Origin: a virus
Direction: 5' to 3' (one strand)
DNA: 41,091 nt
IMG/VR virus record: IMGVR_UViG_3300035703_000179
Location: 1-41,091 of that record
Shown here: positions 2,369 through 12,376 of the stretch, in pieces
How the letters are laid out: the number at the start of each line of letters is the position of its first letter
How positions within the stretch are numbered: the first letter of the stretch is position 1
Notes under the pieces: generated by a model
The model's database searches: none
What the model was told of the DNA's origin: nothing
What the model saw: the letters and a program-made list of their open reading frames with translations, nothing else
Program-made: the position numbers and the translations under genes

Positions 2369-3625
2369 ATGACAGATAAAGTTGATGAAGTTGTTTTACA
2401 CAGTTGTTCGGTATGTGAATACGAAACTGATGCAGACAACTTAATCACGACAGATTACGATAGTCTGGTGTGTGATGATTGCGCCCAGATTTGCCAGCGT
2501 TGCGACAGTGTTGGTACATCCAATGATGTCTTTCACACAGTAGACGACGACTCTTTATGGTGTGAGTCGTGTACCGAGAGGCGTGCCTATTGGTGCGAGT
2601 CATGCGAGGGGTACAACTCTGATACCTCGTACTATGTCACAGATAGGGCTGAGCATTGGTGTGCAGATTGCTGTGATAACAATGCTTACTGGTGTGATGA
2701 TTGCGACGAGTATAATGCTGACGGCTGTGACAGATGCGGTAGCGAGGATGGTATCCGTATCATCCATGATTACAGTTACCGCCCTGATGCTATCTTCCAT
2801 TCGACCAGTAATGATGAGCGTTTATTCTTTGGGCTAGAGATTGAGGTAGAAGCACGCGACAACCTCAGAGAGTCTGCCGAGTACGCACACCAACTGGAGT
2901 CAATGGACTTAGCCTATCTCAAACATGACGGCTCTCTCAATAGTGGCTTCGAGATAGTCACGCATCCAATGTCACATGACTTCTTCAAGCATGAGGCTGG
3001 AGACTTCTTTGCAGTACTGGAAGCCTTGCGTACTCAATCAGGTATCCGAGTTAAGTCATGGGATACTCGTACCTGTGGCTTACACATCCACATCTCACGC
3101 ACTGGGTTTAAGAATGGCGCACACATGCACCGCTTCCTCAACCTTGTGTATTCTAATCAGGAACTATACGAAACCCTAGCAGGTCGCTCATCTGAACAAT
3201 GGGCTAAGTTCACTGACATCAATGTACGCGAGTACAAGCGCGACGAAAATGGTGAGCGTATCTTTAACATGGATTATGGTTACGAGATTACCACCAAGCG
3301 TTCCTTTGCGCACAAGTTACAACCCGACCACCACTCCGACCGATACTCAGCGGTTAATACAAACAACCGCGAGACACTTGAGATGCGTATCTTCCGAGGT
3401 ACTGTCAATGGTGAGACAATCAAAGCCCATCTAGACTTAGCGCACGCCAGCGTTGAGTACACCCGCAATCTTACTGTGCAAGATGTACTGCAAGGTGCAT
3501 TGAGTGCAGATAACTTCATGTGGTATGTATTCCAGAATGAAGTGTTGTATCCAGAACTATCAGCCCGTCTCGATAAGTTAGTAATTAGCGGTCGGCTAGC
3601 CGACCAGAAAGTGAGCACCATCTAA
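2369..3625 (+). CDS. Zinc-finger amidoligase (COOH-NH2 ligase family)
   Basis: Residues 13-123 form a cysteine-rich array of repeated CxxC pairs, enough for about five zinc sites. Residues 150-365 carry the amidoligase hallmarks: FGLEIEVE (154-161), HDGSL (186-190), HIHIS (239-243), RYSAVN (325-330) and EMRIFRGT (338-345). Known relatives (glutamine-synthetase-like fold) are predicted to join carboxyl and amino groups using ATP, often beside a glutamine amidotransferase, exactly as here. The zinc array may bind the target protein or nucleic acid (inference). The ATG follows AAGGTAAGG; the gene is driven by P4. The C terminus SGRLADQ is encoded by palindrome copy 7 and overlaps the next start by 1 nt. 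The substrate is unknown. Confidence 0.8.
   Translation: MTDKVDEVVLHSCSVCEYETDADNLITTDYDSLVCDDCAQICQRCDSVGTSNDVFHTVDDDSLWCESCTERRAYWCESCEGYNSDTSYYVTDRAEHWCADCCDNNAYWCDDCDEYNADGCDRCGSEDGIRIIHDYSYRPDAIFHSTSNDERLFFGLEIEVEARDNLRESAEYAHQLESMDLAYLKHDGSLNSGFEIVTHPMSHDFFKHEAGDFFAVLEALRTQSGIRVKSWDTRTCGLHIHISRTGFKNGAHMHRFLNLVYSNQELYETLAGRSSEQWAKFTDINVREYKRDENGERIFNMDYGYEITTKRSFAHKLQPDHHSDRYSAVNTNNRETLEMRIFRGTVNGETIKAHLDLAHASVEYTRNLTVQDVLQGALSADNFMWYVFQNEVLYPELSARLDKLVISGRLADQKVSTI
3590..3605. repeat. GGTCGGCYAGCCGACC palindrome, copy 7 (inside a gene)
   Basis: Full match, centre TA. It codes for GRLAD near the end of the amidoligase and ends 19 nt before the ATG of the amidotransferase, so it keeps the same distance to a start codon as the intergenic copies. 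Confidence 0.9.
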
Positions 3626-4461
3626 TGTGTCTACTCGTTGTAGCCTCGCCTAATTCCACGCCTCGTAAGAAGGACTTGGAATGTGCATCATGTAATAATC
3701 CGCATGGCTTTGGCTTTGCGGTAATCACGCCCAATGGAATTGTCACTGGTCGTGGTATGTCCAGCAAGAAAGTAATCAAGCAGTTCCTAGAAGTACGCAA
3801 GCAGTATCCAGATAGTTATGCTATGTTCCATGCTCGCTATGCTACGCATGGTGTCAAGAATGAGGATAACTGTCACCCATTCAAGGTGCCTAGCAATCCT
3901 GATACATACCTAGCACACAATGGTATCCTTGACATCAACATCTCAGCAGGCGACCGCAGAAGTGACACGCGTATCTTTGCAGAGGATACCTTACCTGCTA
4001 TGGGTGGTGTTGCTGCATTAGACGACGACCATGTGTGGGCTATGGTTAGCAAGTGGGCATTAGGTAGTAAGATAGTTATCTTCACCCTTGACCCTAGTGC
4101 TAAAGAGACCTGCTACATCATCAACGAGAACGCTGGTCACTGGGATGATGAGGGAATGTGGTGGTCTAACTCTACCTACAAGCAATCTGCTTGGGGCAGT
4201 TACCTAGATACACCCAGTTACTCATCTGCCGTAGCACTTAACGACAGCGGTTATGGTGCAGGTGAGCAGGCTTCATGTGCTCACTGTCTCAGTGTGGGTG
4301 AGTTAGACTCTAACCCTTACTACTGCGAGATGTGCTTTACTTGCTATGACTGCGATGGTATGTACCAAGATACTTGCCTATGCTGGACACCTGAGTCTGA
4401 CCGATACGCATACAACAAGAAAGGAAAGGTAGGTTATTACAATGACTACTTCGGCTTCTAG
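3625..4461 (+). CDS. Class II glutamine amidotransferase with zinc-ribbon tail
   Basis: The second residue is Cys, the N-terminal nucleophile exposed after removal of Met. Family motifs follow: RYATHG (71-76), LAHNG (97-100) and NENAGHW (167-173). Class II enzymes hydrolyse glutamine and pass ammonia to a partner. Residues 218-253 add a cysteine-rich zinc-binding tail (CAHC, CEMCFTCYDC, CLC), echoing that of the upstream amidoligase, so the two may share a docking target. The ATG overlaps the amidoligase stop (TAATG), which indicates coupled synthesis. The likely role is ammonia supply for amidation or peptide-bond modification by the upstream ligase. Confidence 0.8.
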   Translation: MCLLVVASPNSTPRKKDLECASCNNPHGFGFAVITPNGIVTGRGMSSKKVIKQFLEVRKQYPDSYAMFHARYATHGVKNEDNCHPFKVPSNPDTYLAHNGILDINISAGDRRSDTRIFAEDTLPAMGGVAALDDDHVWAMVSKWALGSKIVIFTLDPSAKETCYIINENAGHWDDEGMWWSNSTYKQSAWGSYLDTPSYSSAVALNDSGYGAGEQASCAHCLSVGELDSNPYYCEMCFTCYDCDGMYQDTCLCWTPESDRYAYNKKGKVGYYNDYFGF

Positions 4462-8657: not shown

Positions 8658-8995
8658 TTATCCTCCTCTAGTAGTTCTTTTAATTCTAAATCTATTTCAG
8701 ACATGTGCTCATGTATGATTGCATCTTCGACCAACTTCTTCATCATACTTATGTTAGTCTCTGCTGCATACAATGTGCCGTAAGTTAACTGAGTAATGGT
8801 GCGTACTTCCTCTGGATTGTCAGCACTCTCAAACAGTTGACGTAGCATACTGCCCACTAATAACCTATACCCATTGGGCAAGACTATCTCTGGATTGAAT
8901 TCTTCTTCACCACTATCTTCGATAAGGTGGTCGGTTGCCTCAAAGATATTGTCGAACTGTTGTCCGCATATACCACAAGGTGGAATCTCAATCAA
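8654..8995 (-). CDS. Zinc-finger hypothetical protein, 113 aa
   Basis: An N-terminal CGICGQQFDNIFEATDHL (7-24) looks like a C2H2-type finger without its last His, or a treble-clef fragment. The remainder is acidic and helical. The only reasonable start is the TTG at 8995, which overlaps the primase gene by 8 nt. The function is unknown; the position suggests a partner in replication. Confidence 0.55.
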   Translation of the reverse strand: MIEIPPCGICGQQFDNIFEATDHLIEDSGEEEFNPEIVLPNGYRLLVGSMLRQLFESADNPEEVRTITQLTYGTLYAAETNISMMKKLVEDAIIHEHMSEIDLELKELLEEDK

Positions 8996-9614
8996 TGTTT
9001 AGTCCCATCTTTTCTTTAATGAAGCCCGCCCCGTATTTAATATATGCTGAGTTAACATCTTCTCCATCTCCGAGGGTAACCGTGGTGACTGGTAGTTCAC
9101 GCGATAATCCCGCGGCAAACTCACGACCTGGGGCATCACCGTCGGCGAAAACAAAGATACGTTCGAAATCCGCAAGGAGTCTTGTATAGTGCTTCTTCCA
9201 AGAGTTCGCTCCAGGAACGCCAACGCAGGGAATTCCAACCAAGCGAGACATAGTAAGCGTATCCAACTCGCCCTCACAGACTCCAATCCAATCGCCAGCA
9301 TACTCAATATCAAGTACGTTGTACATGCGAGTATCAACACCAACCATACCCATATACTTCGGTTCAACGGCAGGATTAAGAGAGCGAAAACGCAAATCAA
9401 CCACGCCAGTCTTCGTGATATACGGAATACTGAGCCTTCCTGCGTACTGTTCATGTCCAGGTTCAGGCTCCTCTACTACGCCTAATCGCGCCAGACGCGC
9501 TACTTCCCTTGTTATTCCCCGACTTGCTAGGTAATCTTCCGCCAGAGAGATGCTTCCCGCGTACTTGCTGGTGGCTCTCCCCAGTAATTCCTTCTGCGAT
9601 AGACTTTGCTTCAC
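8988..9614 (-). CDS. DnaG-type primase, Toprim half
   Basis: YLASRGIT (28-35) resembles the linker found after the zinc domain in phage primases. CEGELDTL (113-120) and FADGDAPG (156-163) give the Toprim acidic residues (Glu and DxD) that bind metal for primer synthesis. I place the start at the GTG at 9614, which has GAAGGG upstream; an in-frame TTG lies at 9641. Its first 152 nt overlap the zinc-ribbon gene in another frame (+1). The two products would act together as one primase, or be joined by frameshifting. Confidence 0.75.
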   Translation of the reverse strand: MKQSLSQKELLGRATSKYAGSISLAEDYLASRGITREVARLARLGVVEEPEPGHEQYAGRLSIPYITKTGVVDLRFRSLNPAVEPKYMGMVGVDTRMYNVLDIEYAGDWIGVCEGELDTLTMSRLVGIPCVGVPGANSWKKHYTRLLADFERIFVFADGDAPGREFAAGLSRELPVTTVTLGDGEDVNSAYIKYGAGFIKEKMGLNID

Positions 9615-9837
9615 GTATATCACACCCTTCTTTCTTAGCAATTATTTGAATGCTATTGCCTTGCATACCACACGCGAAGCAATTAAATATATTCTGTCTT
9701 GTATTAAAACTTGCACTTGCATGACTATCATTATGGAATGGACACTTGATGTTGACTTGACCAGAGGCACGTGTGATGTTGGCACCGTAGTGCTTCAACA
9801 CCGACACTATGTCTGGTAAGTCATCCACCAAATACAT
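9463..9837 (-). CDS. DnaG-type primase, zinc-ribbon half
   Basis: CPFHNDSHASASFN (32-45) and FNCFACGMQGNSI (51-63) form the CHC2 zinc ribbon (C32, H35, C53, C56) that reads the template in bacterial and phage primases. After about residue 75 the sequence becomes low in structure (Gly/Ser/Arg-rich), consistent with a tail that overlaps the Toprim gene in another frame. The ATG at 9837 overlaps the resolvase-like gene by 17 nt. It is too short to be a primase on its own and needs the downstream Toprim half. Confidence 0.75.
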   Translation of the reverse strand: MYLVDDLPDIVSVLKHYGANITRASGQVNIKCPFHNDSHASASFNTRQNIFNCFACGMQGNSIQIIAKKEGCDIREAKSIAEGITGESHQQVRGKHLSGGRLPSKSGNNKGSSASGAIRRSRGA

Positions 9838-10339: not shown

Positions 10340-11122
10340 CTAAACATTCTCTGGTATATCATCGATATACATGTATTCTGGATTAAACGCTAGCCATGTC
10401 ATTAAAGTCCCATTCGCATCTGCTCTTCCGTAGCGATTCTTGACTGATGCAACGCCCATCGATGTGCCAACAGTCCCGAGTGTACATATAAGTGCAGGGA
10501 GTTGAGAGACTTTTCCTTGGATTGCACTTCGCGGTTGACAAGGATTTCCTGGAACTGCTTCCGAAGTATGATGTAGTACAACAATCGCTGCATTAGTATC
10601 TCTCGCAAGGAACTTCAACTCCTTCATGATTGCTCGCATAGAAGCGAACTCTTCGCCACCATCTGTGGCTACATCCATGAGGTTGTCCAAGATAATGAGT
10701 GATGGGCTGCATCCCCACAACTCCTCAAACGCTTGGACTTCCTCATCGATGTCTTCTAACGTTGGTGACGATTCGAACGACCAGATTATGTGACTTCCTT
10801 TTTGGAGGACTGCTTTAGTCCAACCAACATCAGTATTAAGTTTCTGCTCTACATCTGACTGACTTTTCCCCGAAATCATTGATGCCAAACGCATAGCCAT
10901 AGTGTGTGCATTAGTATCCGCAGATATGTATAGAGTTGGAACATTAGTCTTGAGTGCTAGCGCTAAGGCTAGTGTAGACTTACCTGCTCCAGGTGCTCCT
11001 GCAAACATAGAAACTTCTGAACGACGTATGATAATCTTGTTCTGTTCGAACGCCTTAAAGGAACTAGGAAGAGGTTCTCCACCAATTGATGCACGTCCTA
11101 CTGAGCGTACTAGTGTTCTCAC
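10340..11122 (-). CDS. DnaB/RecA-fold ATPase, probable replicative helicase
   Basis: Walker A GAPGAGKST (42-50), Walker B LIILDNL (142-148) and VVLHHTSE (181-188, the sensor/H3-like motif) define a RecA-type motor of the DnaB/gp41 class. At 260 residues it is a single motor domain without the N-terminal primase-binding domain of full DnaB, as seen in several phages. With the split primase it would form the replication fork machinery; loading factors were not found. The GTG start at 11122 has a very strong AGGAGGAGG ribosome site. Confidence 0.8.
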   Translation of the reverse strand: MRTLVRSVGRASIGGEPLPSSFKAFEQNKIIIRRSEVSMFAGAPGAGKSTLALALALKTNVPTLYISADTNAHTMAMRLASMISGKSQSDVEQKLNTDVGWTKAVLQKGSHIIWSFESSPTLEDIDEEVQAFEELWGCSPSLIILDNLMDVATDGGEEFASMRAIMKELKFLARDTNAAIVVLHHTSEAVPGNPCQPRSAIQGKVSQLPALICTLGTVGTSMGVASVKNRYGRADANGTLMTWLAFNPEYMYIDDIPENV

Positions 11123-11165: not shown

Positions 11166-11570
11166 TTAGTTGACTGGCTTGCATTGGTCCGCGCCTTGAG
11201 GCATCGGACACACCCACATTGCGTATGGATTTCCCGTCTTGCTCGAGATTCCCGACTTGTACTTGCGGGGTCCGTGTTGGCAAGTTGGTCCACCCTGTTG
11301 TTGGGTTGTTGGAGCCGTAGCGGACGGAGCCTGCGCCTGGGGTGGAGCGGATGATACTGGTGGCGGAGTGCTTTGAGTTGAAGCCGATGTCGCTAAAGGG
11401 AGCGCTCCGTAAGCACCTACAATCAGCCGTTGTACCGAAGCGACTTGATGAGAGTAGTCACCAATTCCCTCAAGTAATACACTGAGTTCGTCTGCTGTCT
11501 GAGCGCGTACGTTAATCATGTCACCCGAAGGGGTCTTGTACGATACTTGTAACTTCCAGTCTTCTGCCAT
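11166..11570 (-). CDS. Hypothetical protein with Pro/Ala linker and zinc-ribbon end
   Basis: An N-terminal region (WKLQVSYKTPSGDMINVRAQTADEL) looks like a small alpha/beta domain. A Pro/Ala/Ser/Thr linker (about 55-93) joins it to a C-terminal ribbon, TCQHGPRKYKSGIS, then YAMWVCPMPQGADQC, resembling single-strand-binding topoisomerase-type zinc ribbons. This suggests a nucleic-acid-binding accessory of the replication complex (inference). It lies between the nuclease and the helicase; a single-strand DNA-binding role is possible but not shown. Confidence 0.55.
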   Translation of the reverse strand: MAEDWKLQVSYKTPSGDMINVRAQTADELSVLLEGIGDYSHQVASVQRLIVGAYGALPLATSASTQSTPPPVSSAPPQAQAPSATAPTTQQQGGPTCQHGPRKYKSGISSKTGNPYAMWVCPMPQGADQCKPVN

Positions 11571-12188
11571 TTATTTATCCTTCTTGATAGAGAATTGACA
11601 GTACTCTGTGAGTCCGCACATGTACTGGCAACTGTTTGTGTTGGGCAAGAATATCGCGCTCTTGCGTGCGTTGTCAAATTGCGTGATTAGATATTCCATC
11701 TTGTCATAAGTGTACTCAGACAGGTCAACCATCTCCGAGACATTACTGCCACGTGACATGTAGTATGTTCCCCACTTGACTTCGATGCCGAAGGTCTGTT
11801 CAAGACCTAACTTGTAGAAGCCAAGTTGTAGACTGCTAGTTGGTGTATTCTGTGAAGTCTTGAGGTCGACAATGACCAACTCTCCGTTGACTTCGAATAC
11901 GCGGTCGATAATCATCTTGACTGCGACATTGTTGACGACAGGAGTAAGCGCAAGTTCGATTCCAGGATTGCCATCTGGTGCTATCCAGATTTTCCAATCA
12001 GGATTAGTCTTGCGCCATGCGATGTAGGCATCTACCCAACGTGGTCCTTGAGTCTGCCAGAAGTTGACATCCTCCTTGTTAGGGTTAGCCTTGGTAGCAC
12101 GACCGCCAACACGTGCATTGGTTAAGTCGGTATCACCCTTACAGACATTCCAGGATTCAGTCCATAAGTTTTGGACATCACTTATCAT
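11571..12188 (-). CDS. RecB/Cas4-like nuclease, C-terminal part
   Basis: IIDRVFEVNGELVIVDLKTSQ (93-113) carries the RecB-family metal-binding core (Asp95, Asp108, Lys110), followed by QLGFYKLGLE (121-130), the conserved Gln-Tyr motif. Cysteines C187, C191 and C197 match the distal part of the Cas4/AddB iron-sulphur site. The N-terminal part of the usual domain is missing here and is encoded by the preceding 63-aa frame, which overlaps by ATGA. Together they make one nuclease, likely a 5'-3' exonuclease in recombination or DNA processing. Confidence 0.75.
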   Translation of the reverse strand: MISDVQNLWTESWNVCKGDTDLTNARVGGRATKANPNKEDVNFWQTQGPRWVDAYIAWRKTNPDWKIWIAPDGNPGIELALTPVVNNVAVKMIIDRVFEVNGELVIVDLKTSQNTPTSSLQLGFYKLGLEQTFGIEVKWGTYYMSRGSNVSEMVDLSEYTYDKMEYLITQFDNARKSAIFLPNTNSCQYMCGLTEYCQFSIKKDK

Positions 12189-12376
12189 AGGTTATCCTTA
12201 TCGTAGGTTTCGCACGCTAGGTGGAACGCTGAACCGCCAACAGACCAGACGGATGGGGCTTCTTCCTTGTTGAGGAGTCTGCCTAGGTAGTATTGGTACC
12301 CACAAGTTAAGTAGGTTGAGAACGCAGAGTACGAGATGTGCTCTGGTAAGGTATATTCTTCTAGTTGGATTGACAT
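12185..12376 (-). CDS. RecB/Cas4-like nuclease, N-terminal part, 63 aa
   Basis: ISYSAFSTYLTCGYQYYLGRL (from residue 14), then VGGSAFHLACE (46-56), matches the N terminus of Cas4/RecB-type nucleases, including the first cluster cysteine (C25) and the motif I His (H52). I take the ATG at 12376, because a perfect TATAAT lies 7 nt upstream, implying a leaderless messenger; longer in-frame starts would lie upstream of that promoter's start point. The stop overlaps the second half (CTATGATAA). First gene of the leftward operon. Confidence 0.7.
   Translation of the reverse strand: MSIQLEEYTLPEHISYSAFSTYLTCGYQYYLGRLLNKEEAPSVWSVGGSAFHLACETYDKDNL

Follow-up and report, generated by a model that had tools for sequence, protein, structure and literature searches.

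Does a phage build one nuclease from two genes, or are two short reading frames only a single gene broken by an error? This question is raised by positions 11571 to 12376 of the virus record IMGVR_UViG_3300035703_000179 (IMG/VR), whose 41,091 nucleotides (nt) are referred to as the window. Here, two open reading frames (ORFs) of 63 and 205 amino acids (aa), which we call the N-chain and C-chain genes, follow each other on the minus strand. They had been described in an initial annotation, made from the sequence, as a RecB/Cas4-like nuclease split into two proteins that would share one iron-sulphur (Fe-S) cluster. With a probability of about 0.8, we propose that one RecB/AdnA/Cas4-like PD-(D/E)XK nuclease is encoded in the window by two genes, whose chains are translated separately and share one Fe-S cluster.

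One set of nuclease motifs on two genes

When checked against the sequence and the ORF list, the coordinates and residues initially assigned to both frames were correct: the 63-aa frame holds C25, the first cluster Cys, and H52, and the 205-aa frame holds the Asp/Asp/Lys core with the remaining three Cys, C187, C191 and C197. In the C chain, D95 lies in the context IIDRV, D108 and K110 in VDLKT, and Q121 and Y125 in LQLGFY. The motif I His, the motif II Asp, the motif III Asp-x-Lys and QhXXY are all present, spread over the two chains. Both frames match PF12705 (PDDEXK_1, profile length 247) in complementary parts, the N chain over profile positions 1-50 (E-value 3.7e-6) and the C chain over positions 116-247 (2.6e-8). 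The C chain also matches Cas_Cas4, and its best PHROG is phrog_1870, an exonuclease (5e-43). Its C-terminal Cys are spaced CX3CX5C in the window type (15 of 15 rows of alignment A1); the commoner spacing, CX2CX5C, is found in L081 and L286, two related loci discussed below.

These residues are invariant. Among split loci with a letter at the position, the first Cys is conserved in 313/313 and the other three likewise in 313/313; the motif I His, D95, D108, K110, Q121 and Y125 are present in 315/315. All four Cys are also found in the 68 fused loci. The median ratio of nonsynonymous to synonymous substitution rates (dN/dS) of the N chain is 0.058 in set 1, the nearest relatives (777 of 800 sampled pairs), and 0.087 in set 2 (724 of 800); that of the C chain is 0.106 in set 1 (793 of 800). 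The N chain is under strong purifying selection and, given its invariant residues, this small chain is no decaying remnant.

Separation of the two genes in relatives

Set 1 comprises the 80 nearest IMG/VR loci, whose C chain is 82-93% identical to that of the window. Both ORFs are present, in different frames, in all 80. The stop of the N gene overlaps the start of the C gene as ATGA or GTGA in 79 of them, with varied surrounding letters, and as ATGACTAA in the exception, L041. A ribosome-binding-site match of five or more letters precedes the C start in 67 of the 68 distinct set-1 sequences, versus 5.6% of control start codons; this count takes the best of several start candidates and is therefore flattering outside set 1, whereas within set 1 a single candidate nearly always exists. 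The initial annotation had read the stop-start overlap as a sign of coupled synthesis. This fits the window type; it is not general, because the halves stand apart in many relatives.

We then classified 404 loci by N and C profiles, using L081, alignment A3, L317 and L306 as further queries (some contigs occur in more than one set): 316 were scored as split, 68 as fused and 20 as lacking an N match. The window-scan set is entirely split (80/80). Split loci also make up 78 of the 81 in the L081 set (three without N), 69 of the 79 in the L317 set (nine without N and one shortened fusion, L401) and 74 of the 80 in the L306 set (six without N). The Manuel/A3 set holds 64 fused loci, 14 split ones and two without N (n=80), and the remaining loci are the window itself, split, and three named phages, fused. 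In the 20 loci without N, the C match lies at most 463 nt from the contig end, where the sequence is cut off; whenever more than 463 nt were present upstream of a C gene, an N gene was found. Two loci scored as split, L252 and L276, are frame-broken fused genes and were dropped before further counts and before the trees. This leaves 314 real split loci over several clades, corresponding to 254 distinct N-to-C sequences, in which the second gene stands in relative frame 2, 1 or 0 in 133, 98 and 23 cases, respectively. At least 120 nt separate the halves in 73 of the 254.

In the two dropped loci (L276, 1940-2560; L252, 1940-2870), a fused gene of the Manuel type is interrupted by a frame break; these are errors or broken genes and contrast with the true splits. 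L401 (1417-1960) has an in-frame deletion that removes about 100 aa of the C chain, including the motif II Asp, and leaves the N chain running straight into the final ~100 aa. Probably the gene is defective or the contig misassembled; the locus was counted as fused and kept out of the trees.

The division is also found in cultured phages. The C chain of OX376641 (LanE43-AprF5; locus L081) is 58% identical to that of the window and is likewise encoded apart from its N chain, the N gene lying at 2811-2996 and the C gene at 2980-3588. Its frame lies on the opposite side, +1 and not -1, and the two genes overlap by 11 or 17 nt. OX376640 (LanE43-AprE7) is split in the same manner. These are the Planktophila phages F5 and E7, which passages of PMC10202952 report as the first phages of 'Ca. 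Nanopelagicales' to be cultivated. A scan of genome contigs matched 19 stretches, with no relative among them.

In several loci, whole genes lie between the halves: two in L199 (107 and 218 aa), one each in L227 (109 aa), L233 (114 aa) and L395 (171 aa), and two in L306 (77 and 64 aa). They adjoin or overlap their neighbours like ordinary phage genes. Since neither frameshifting nor readthrough can simply join halves that flank whole genes, the N and C chains must be separate products there. Searches of six intervening proteins against Pfam and PHROGs gave nothing convincing; the best match, of the 218-aa protein of L199 to DUF7574, is below the curated cut-off. In L306-type loci (L404-L483), two families of small proteins recur between the halves. 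One is about 60-67 aa long; the other, about 71-78 aa, has CxC and CxxC-like motifs, and both are perhaps nuclease partners.

A homing endonuclease or intron was considered as the present cause of the split and rejected. No convincing homing endonuclease was found among the six intervening proteins with PHROGs and Pfam (the nearest match is phrog_2340, 'endonuclease', E-value 0.064), and Rfam detected no intron in the window, L081, L199, L227 or L233. In the window there is no room for a homing endonuclease because the halves overlap as ATGA. Such an element may have played a part in the past. A split intein was also rejected: in the 254 sequences, the N chain ends 3-19 aa past its profile match and the C chain starts 0-17 aa before its own, and the 63 and 205 aa together are no longer than the fused homologues.

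Fused homologues occur in phages of Mycobacterium, Streptomyces, Rhodococcus and Propionibacterium, which makes the fused gene the likely ancestral state. In a FastTree tree of 66 representatives, the fused L300 and L314 fall amid split clades with supports of 0.33 and 0.66. A tree constrained to place every split row and L286 in one clade was not rejected by the approximately unbiased test (p-AU 0.155; IQ-TREE, 49 of the 66 rows, with a warning of too few replicates). A single origin of the split would agree with these data, and there may have been up to three.

A natural fusion and the proposed two-chain enzyme

The initial annotation had named an intact fused relative with an indel as one finding that would speak against a split. 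Among close relatives of the window, only L286 has a fused gene, a single 253-aa ORF reading GGRAFHLATELNELWVKAW across the junction, with a few residues fewer there than its relatives. Its junction pattern was absent from the other loci among the 324 compared, its genomic neighbours match those of split phages, and both trees place it with the split loci of the L081 type. Lying inside a split clade, L286 looks like a secondary fusion by deletion, and this natural fusion suggests that both chains do one job.

We modelled L286 with AlphaFold from an alignment of 107 rows combining fused proteins and separate N and C chains. The model has a mean predicted local distance difference test score (pLDDT) of 95.9 and a predicted template modelling score (pTM) of 0.91; prediction from the single sequence was poor (pLDDT 37.6). 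In the model, the junction (L56/N57) lies in a loop between helices 42-56 and 60-68, with C24 and H51 on the N side and D146, D159, K161, Q172, C238, C241 and C247 on the C side. The modelled fold is RecB-like. Its match to AdnA has a Z-score of 16.8 over 224 residues, with a root-mean-square deviation of 3.9; other matches are ACE1 (Z 15.3), AddB (14.4), Cas4 (13.2), Dna2 (12.1) and Exo5 (11.2). The model was also compared by Foldseek and against viral models. The four cysteine columns of the sequence profile align with Cys residues of AdnA.

What the sequences show directly is a pair of genes that stay separate in relatives, with conserved residues, selection on the N chain and a natural fusion; on these we propose the following scheme. 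The C chain would begin at its own start codon, aided by a ribosome-binding site within the last bases of the N gene and by the overlapping ATGA, which would favour re-initiation. The N chain would consist of helices bearing the first cluster Cys, followed by a helix with the motif I His, and would dock on the C chain as in the fold of the fused enzyme. The chains would be stapled together by a single Fe-S cluster, to which the N chain contributes one Cys and the C chain three. The complex would trim DNA, most likely as an exonuclease, in phage replication or recombination. According to passages of PMC4176176, a single cluster, called an 'iron staple', is bound in the Cas4 proteins SSO0001 and Pcal_0546 by four Cys, of which one is N-terminal and three are C-terminal; it is needed for activity in the former and not in the latter.

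Several points weigh against this proposal. Chain binding, the cluster and the activity are all things that we infer. L286 is known from one contig only, and the structure model is that of this fused protein and not of the two-chain form. Distances between N chains correlate with those between C chains (r 0.58 and 0.66 in sets 1 and 2) no better than C-chain distances do with those of the downstream gene (0.53 and 0.79), so co-evolution of distances lends no support. No ribosome-binding-site match was found in 47 of the 65 distinct L081-type sequences. Finally, Cys mutants of Pcal_0546 lose the cluster yet stay active, as passages of PMC4176176 report, so the cluster may be dispensable.

How do other explanations fare? 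An ordinary single gene disrupted by a sequencing or assembly error, or by a recent frameshift mutation, would fit the fused homologues of cultured actinophages, and real breaks do occur in L252 and L276. However, all 80 near relatives, 254 distinct sequences and both cultured Planktophila phages are split, and the start codon and ribosome-binding site of the C gene are conserved, which leaves this explanation practically no room; the single-base error considered at first is ruled out. Programmed ribosomal frameshifting, yielding a fused protein from the two frames, could draw on the -1 position of the second frame in the window and on the AAGGA ahead of the junction. It is very improbable, as the relative frame varies from locus to locus, whole genes or at least 120 nt often lie between the halves, the junction letters vary and no slippery run of repeated bases is visible by eye in the window type.

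Two further alternatives accept two proteins and question what they form. The nuclease might consist of the C chain only, with the N chain acting outside the fold as a regulator or inhibitor; genes lying up to about 840 nt or more apart would agree with this. We consider this improbable since the N chain retains residues that the fused enzyme needs (C25 and H52), accompanies every C gene with enough upstream sequence and is fused to it in L286. Alternatively, the two chains might form one enzyme without a shared Fe-S cluster, the Cys being structural or zinc-holding, or the cluster dispensable. Clusters are invisible in sequence, and the active Pcal_0546 mutants speak for this option; the one-plus-three arrangement of Cys seen in Cas4 (passages of PMC4176176), their invariance in split and fused loci and their alignment with those of AdnA speak against it, and we regard it as unlikely. 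The two-chain nuclease sharing one cluster is thus preferred.

If this preferred reading is true, two gene products together provide the Fe-S cluster and the active site of a nuclease that has been kept across hundreds of phage contigs. This bears on the purpose of the cluster in Cas4/AddB/AdnA-type nucleases: with the staple divided between chains, 'holding the fold together' becomes directly testable as subunit binding, and the two cultured phages with the split (passages of PMC10202952) offer material for this. More tentatively, and with rather more doubt than belief, the cluster could be an obligatory link between the chains, making assembly of the nuclease a switch that depends on iron and redox state; the fused gene may have been broken more than once at the same loop and healed once, in L286, and small phage genes may have settled in the gap.

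Genome context and comparison with known systems

Directly downstream of the nuclease pair are genes for a gp49-like protein, a DnaB-like helicase, a RusA/Mrr-like nuclease and the two parts of a primase (Table 1). The single-gene exonuclease of Propionibacterium phage P100_1 occupies a similar genomic slot, and in that phage, too, the primase annotation covers two genes, gp31 and gp30.

Table 1. Positions of the two nuclease genes, their junction and neighbouring genes in the window
Feature	Position	Strand	Remarks
N-chain gene	12185..12376	-	63 aa, ATG start, TGA stop; first cluster Cys C25, motif I His H52
C-chain gene	11571..12188	-	205 aa; D95, D108, K110, Q121, Y125; last three Cys C187, C191, C197
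ATGA, N stop overlapping C start	12185..12188	-	sequence; ATGA or GTGA in 79/80 near relatives
AAGGA, ribosome-binding-site-like	12195..12199	-	in the last bases of the N gene, 6 nt ahead of the C-gene ATG
Phage_gp49-like, next gene	11166..11570	-	PF25690, E-value 1.1e-10
DnaB-like helicase	10340..11122	-	phrog_243, E-value 5.8e-76
DNA primase, zinc-ribbon part	9463-9837	-	Pfam
DNA primase, Toprim part	8988-9641	-	Pfam

Ahead of the N gene, TATAAT is found at 12389-12384 (minus strand), 7 nt before the ATG, with no ribosome-binding site visible by eye; the mRNA of this gene may thus be leaderless. The window (41.1 kb, about 45% G+C) also encodes WhiB, together with a sigma-70 region 4-like and a glycosyltransferase-like protein, both below the Pfam cut-off. 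Such features are reported for Planktophila phages in passages of PMC10202952, and the host of this uncultured phage is likely a freshwater actinobacterium. We take the split nuclease to be a feature of many phages of such hosts. Elsewhere, eight copies of a palindrome, GGTCGGC(C/T)AGCCGACC, lie 114-1252 nt apart between positions 1141 and 5584, in a region of plus-strand genes and several of them at ORF ends; they are possibly operator or terminator elements. Adjoining plus-strand genes at 2369-4461 match Amidoligase_2 (418 aa) and, weakly, the glutamine amidotransferase family GATase_6 (278 aa), a pair that might modify proteins or the cell wall.

Fe-S clusters bridging two chains occur in the nitrogenase Fe protein and as FX of photosystem I, neither of which is a nuclease. 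Each half of a split SdhB, also not a nuclease, would hold its own clusters. The gene for this Fe-S protein, sdhB, is split in two in Euglenozoa (passages of PMC2663770). Split phage enzymes are known as well, and passages of PMC2988022 describe the NrdA of Aeromonas phage Aeh1, the gene 43A/43B polymerase of phage 25 and the 39/60 topoisomerase of T4. As proposed here, one enzyme is reassembled from two genes in each; they differ in that homing endonucleases or an untranslated insert are involved, and those passages mention no metal cluster shared between the halves. Split phage enzymes and inter-chain clusters are therefore already known. We found no earlier report of a split Cas4/RecB-type nuclease in the parts covered of the open-licence PMC literature, including passages of PMC5704561 and PMC5050341 and a term search of PMC6802176.

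Among unsplit enzymes, the closest solved folds to the L286 model are AddB and the nuclease domain of AdnA from mycobacterial AdnAB, in which this domain ends a large helicase chain. Cas4 (SSO0001 and Pcal_0546) and ACE1 share the RecB-like fold and the four Cys that hold one cluster, one of them N-terminal and the other three C-terminal, but they are single chains and belong to a CRISPR or Argonaute context; no Cas1 or Cas2 was detected among the 22 window proteins scanned, which are part of the window ORFs. The nearest relatives in kind are the actinophage 'Cas4 family exonucleases' of the PF12705 clade: Mycobacterium phage Goose gp69, Streptomyces phage Manuel gp62, Rhodococcus phage RER2 Orf49 and Propionibacterium phage P100_1 gp36. 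Profile, motifs, four Cys and genomic neighbours are as here, but each is one ORF of 269-315 aa. These fused relatives keep to the rule of the RecB/Cas4-like family that all motifs reside in one polypeptide; in the window, as in the split loci, the same motifs are divided between two genes.
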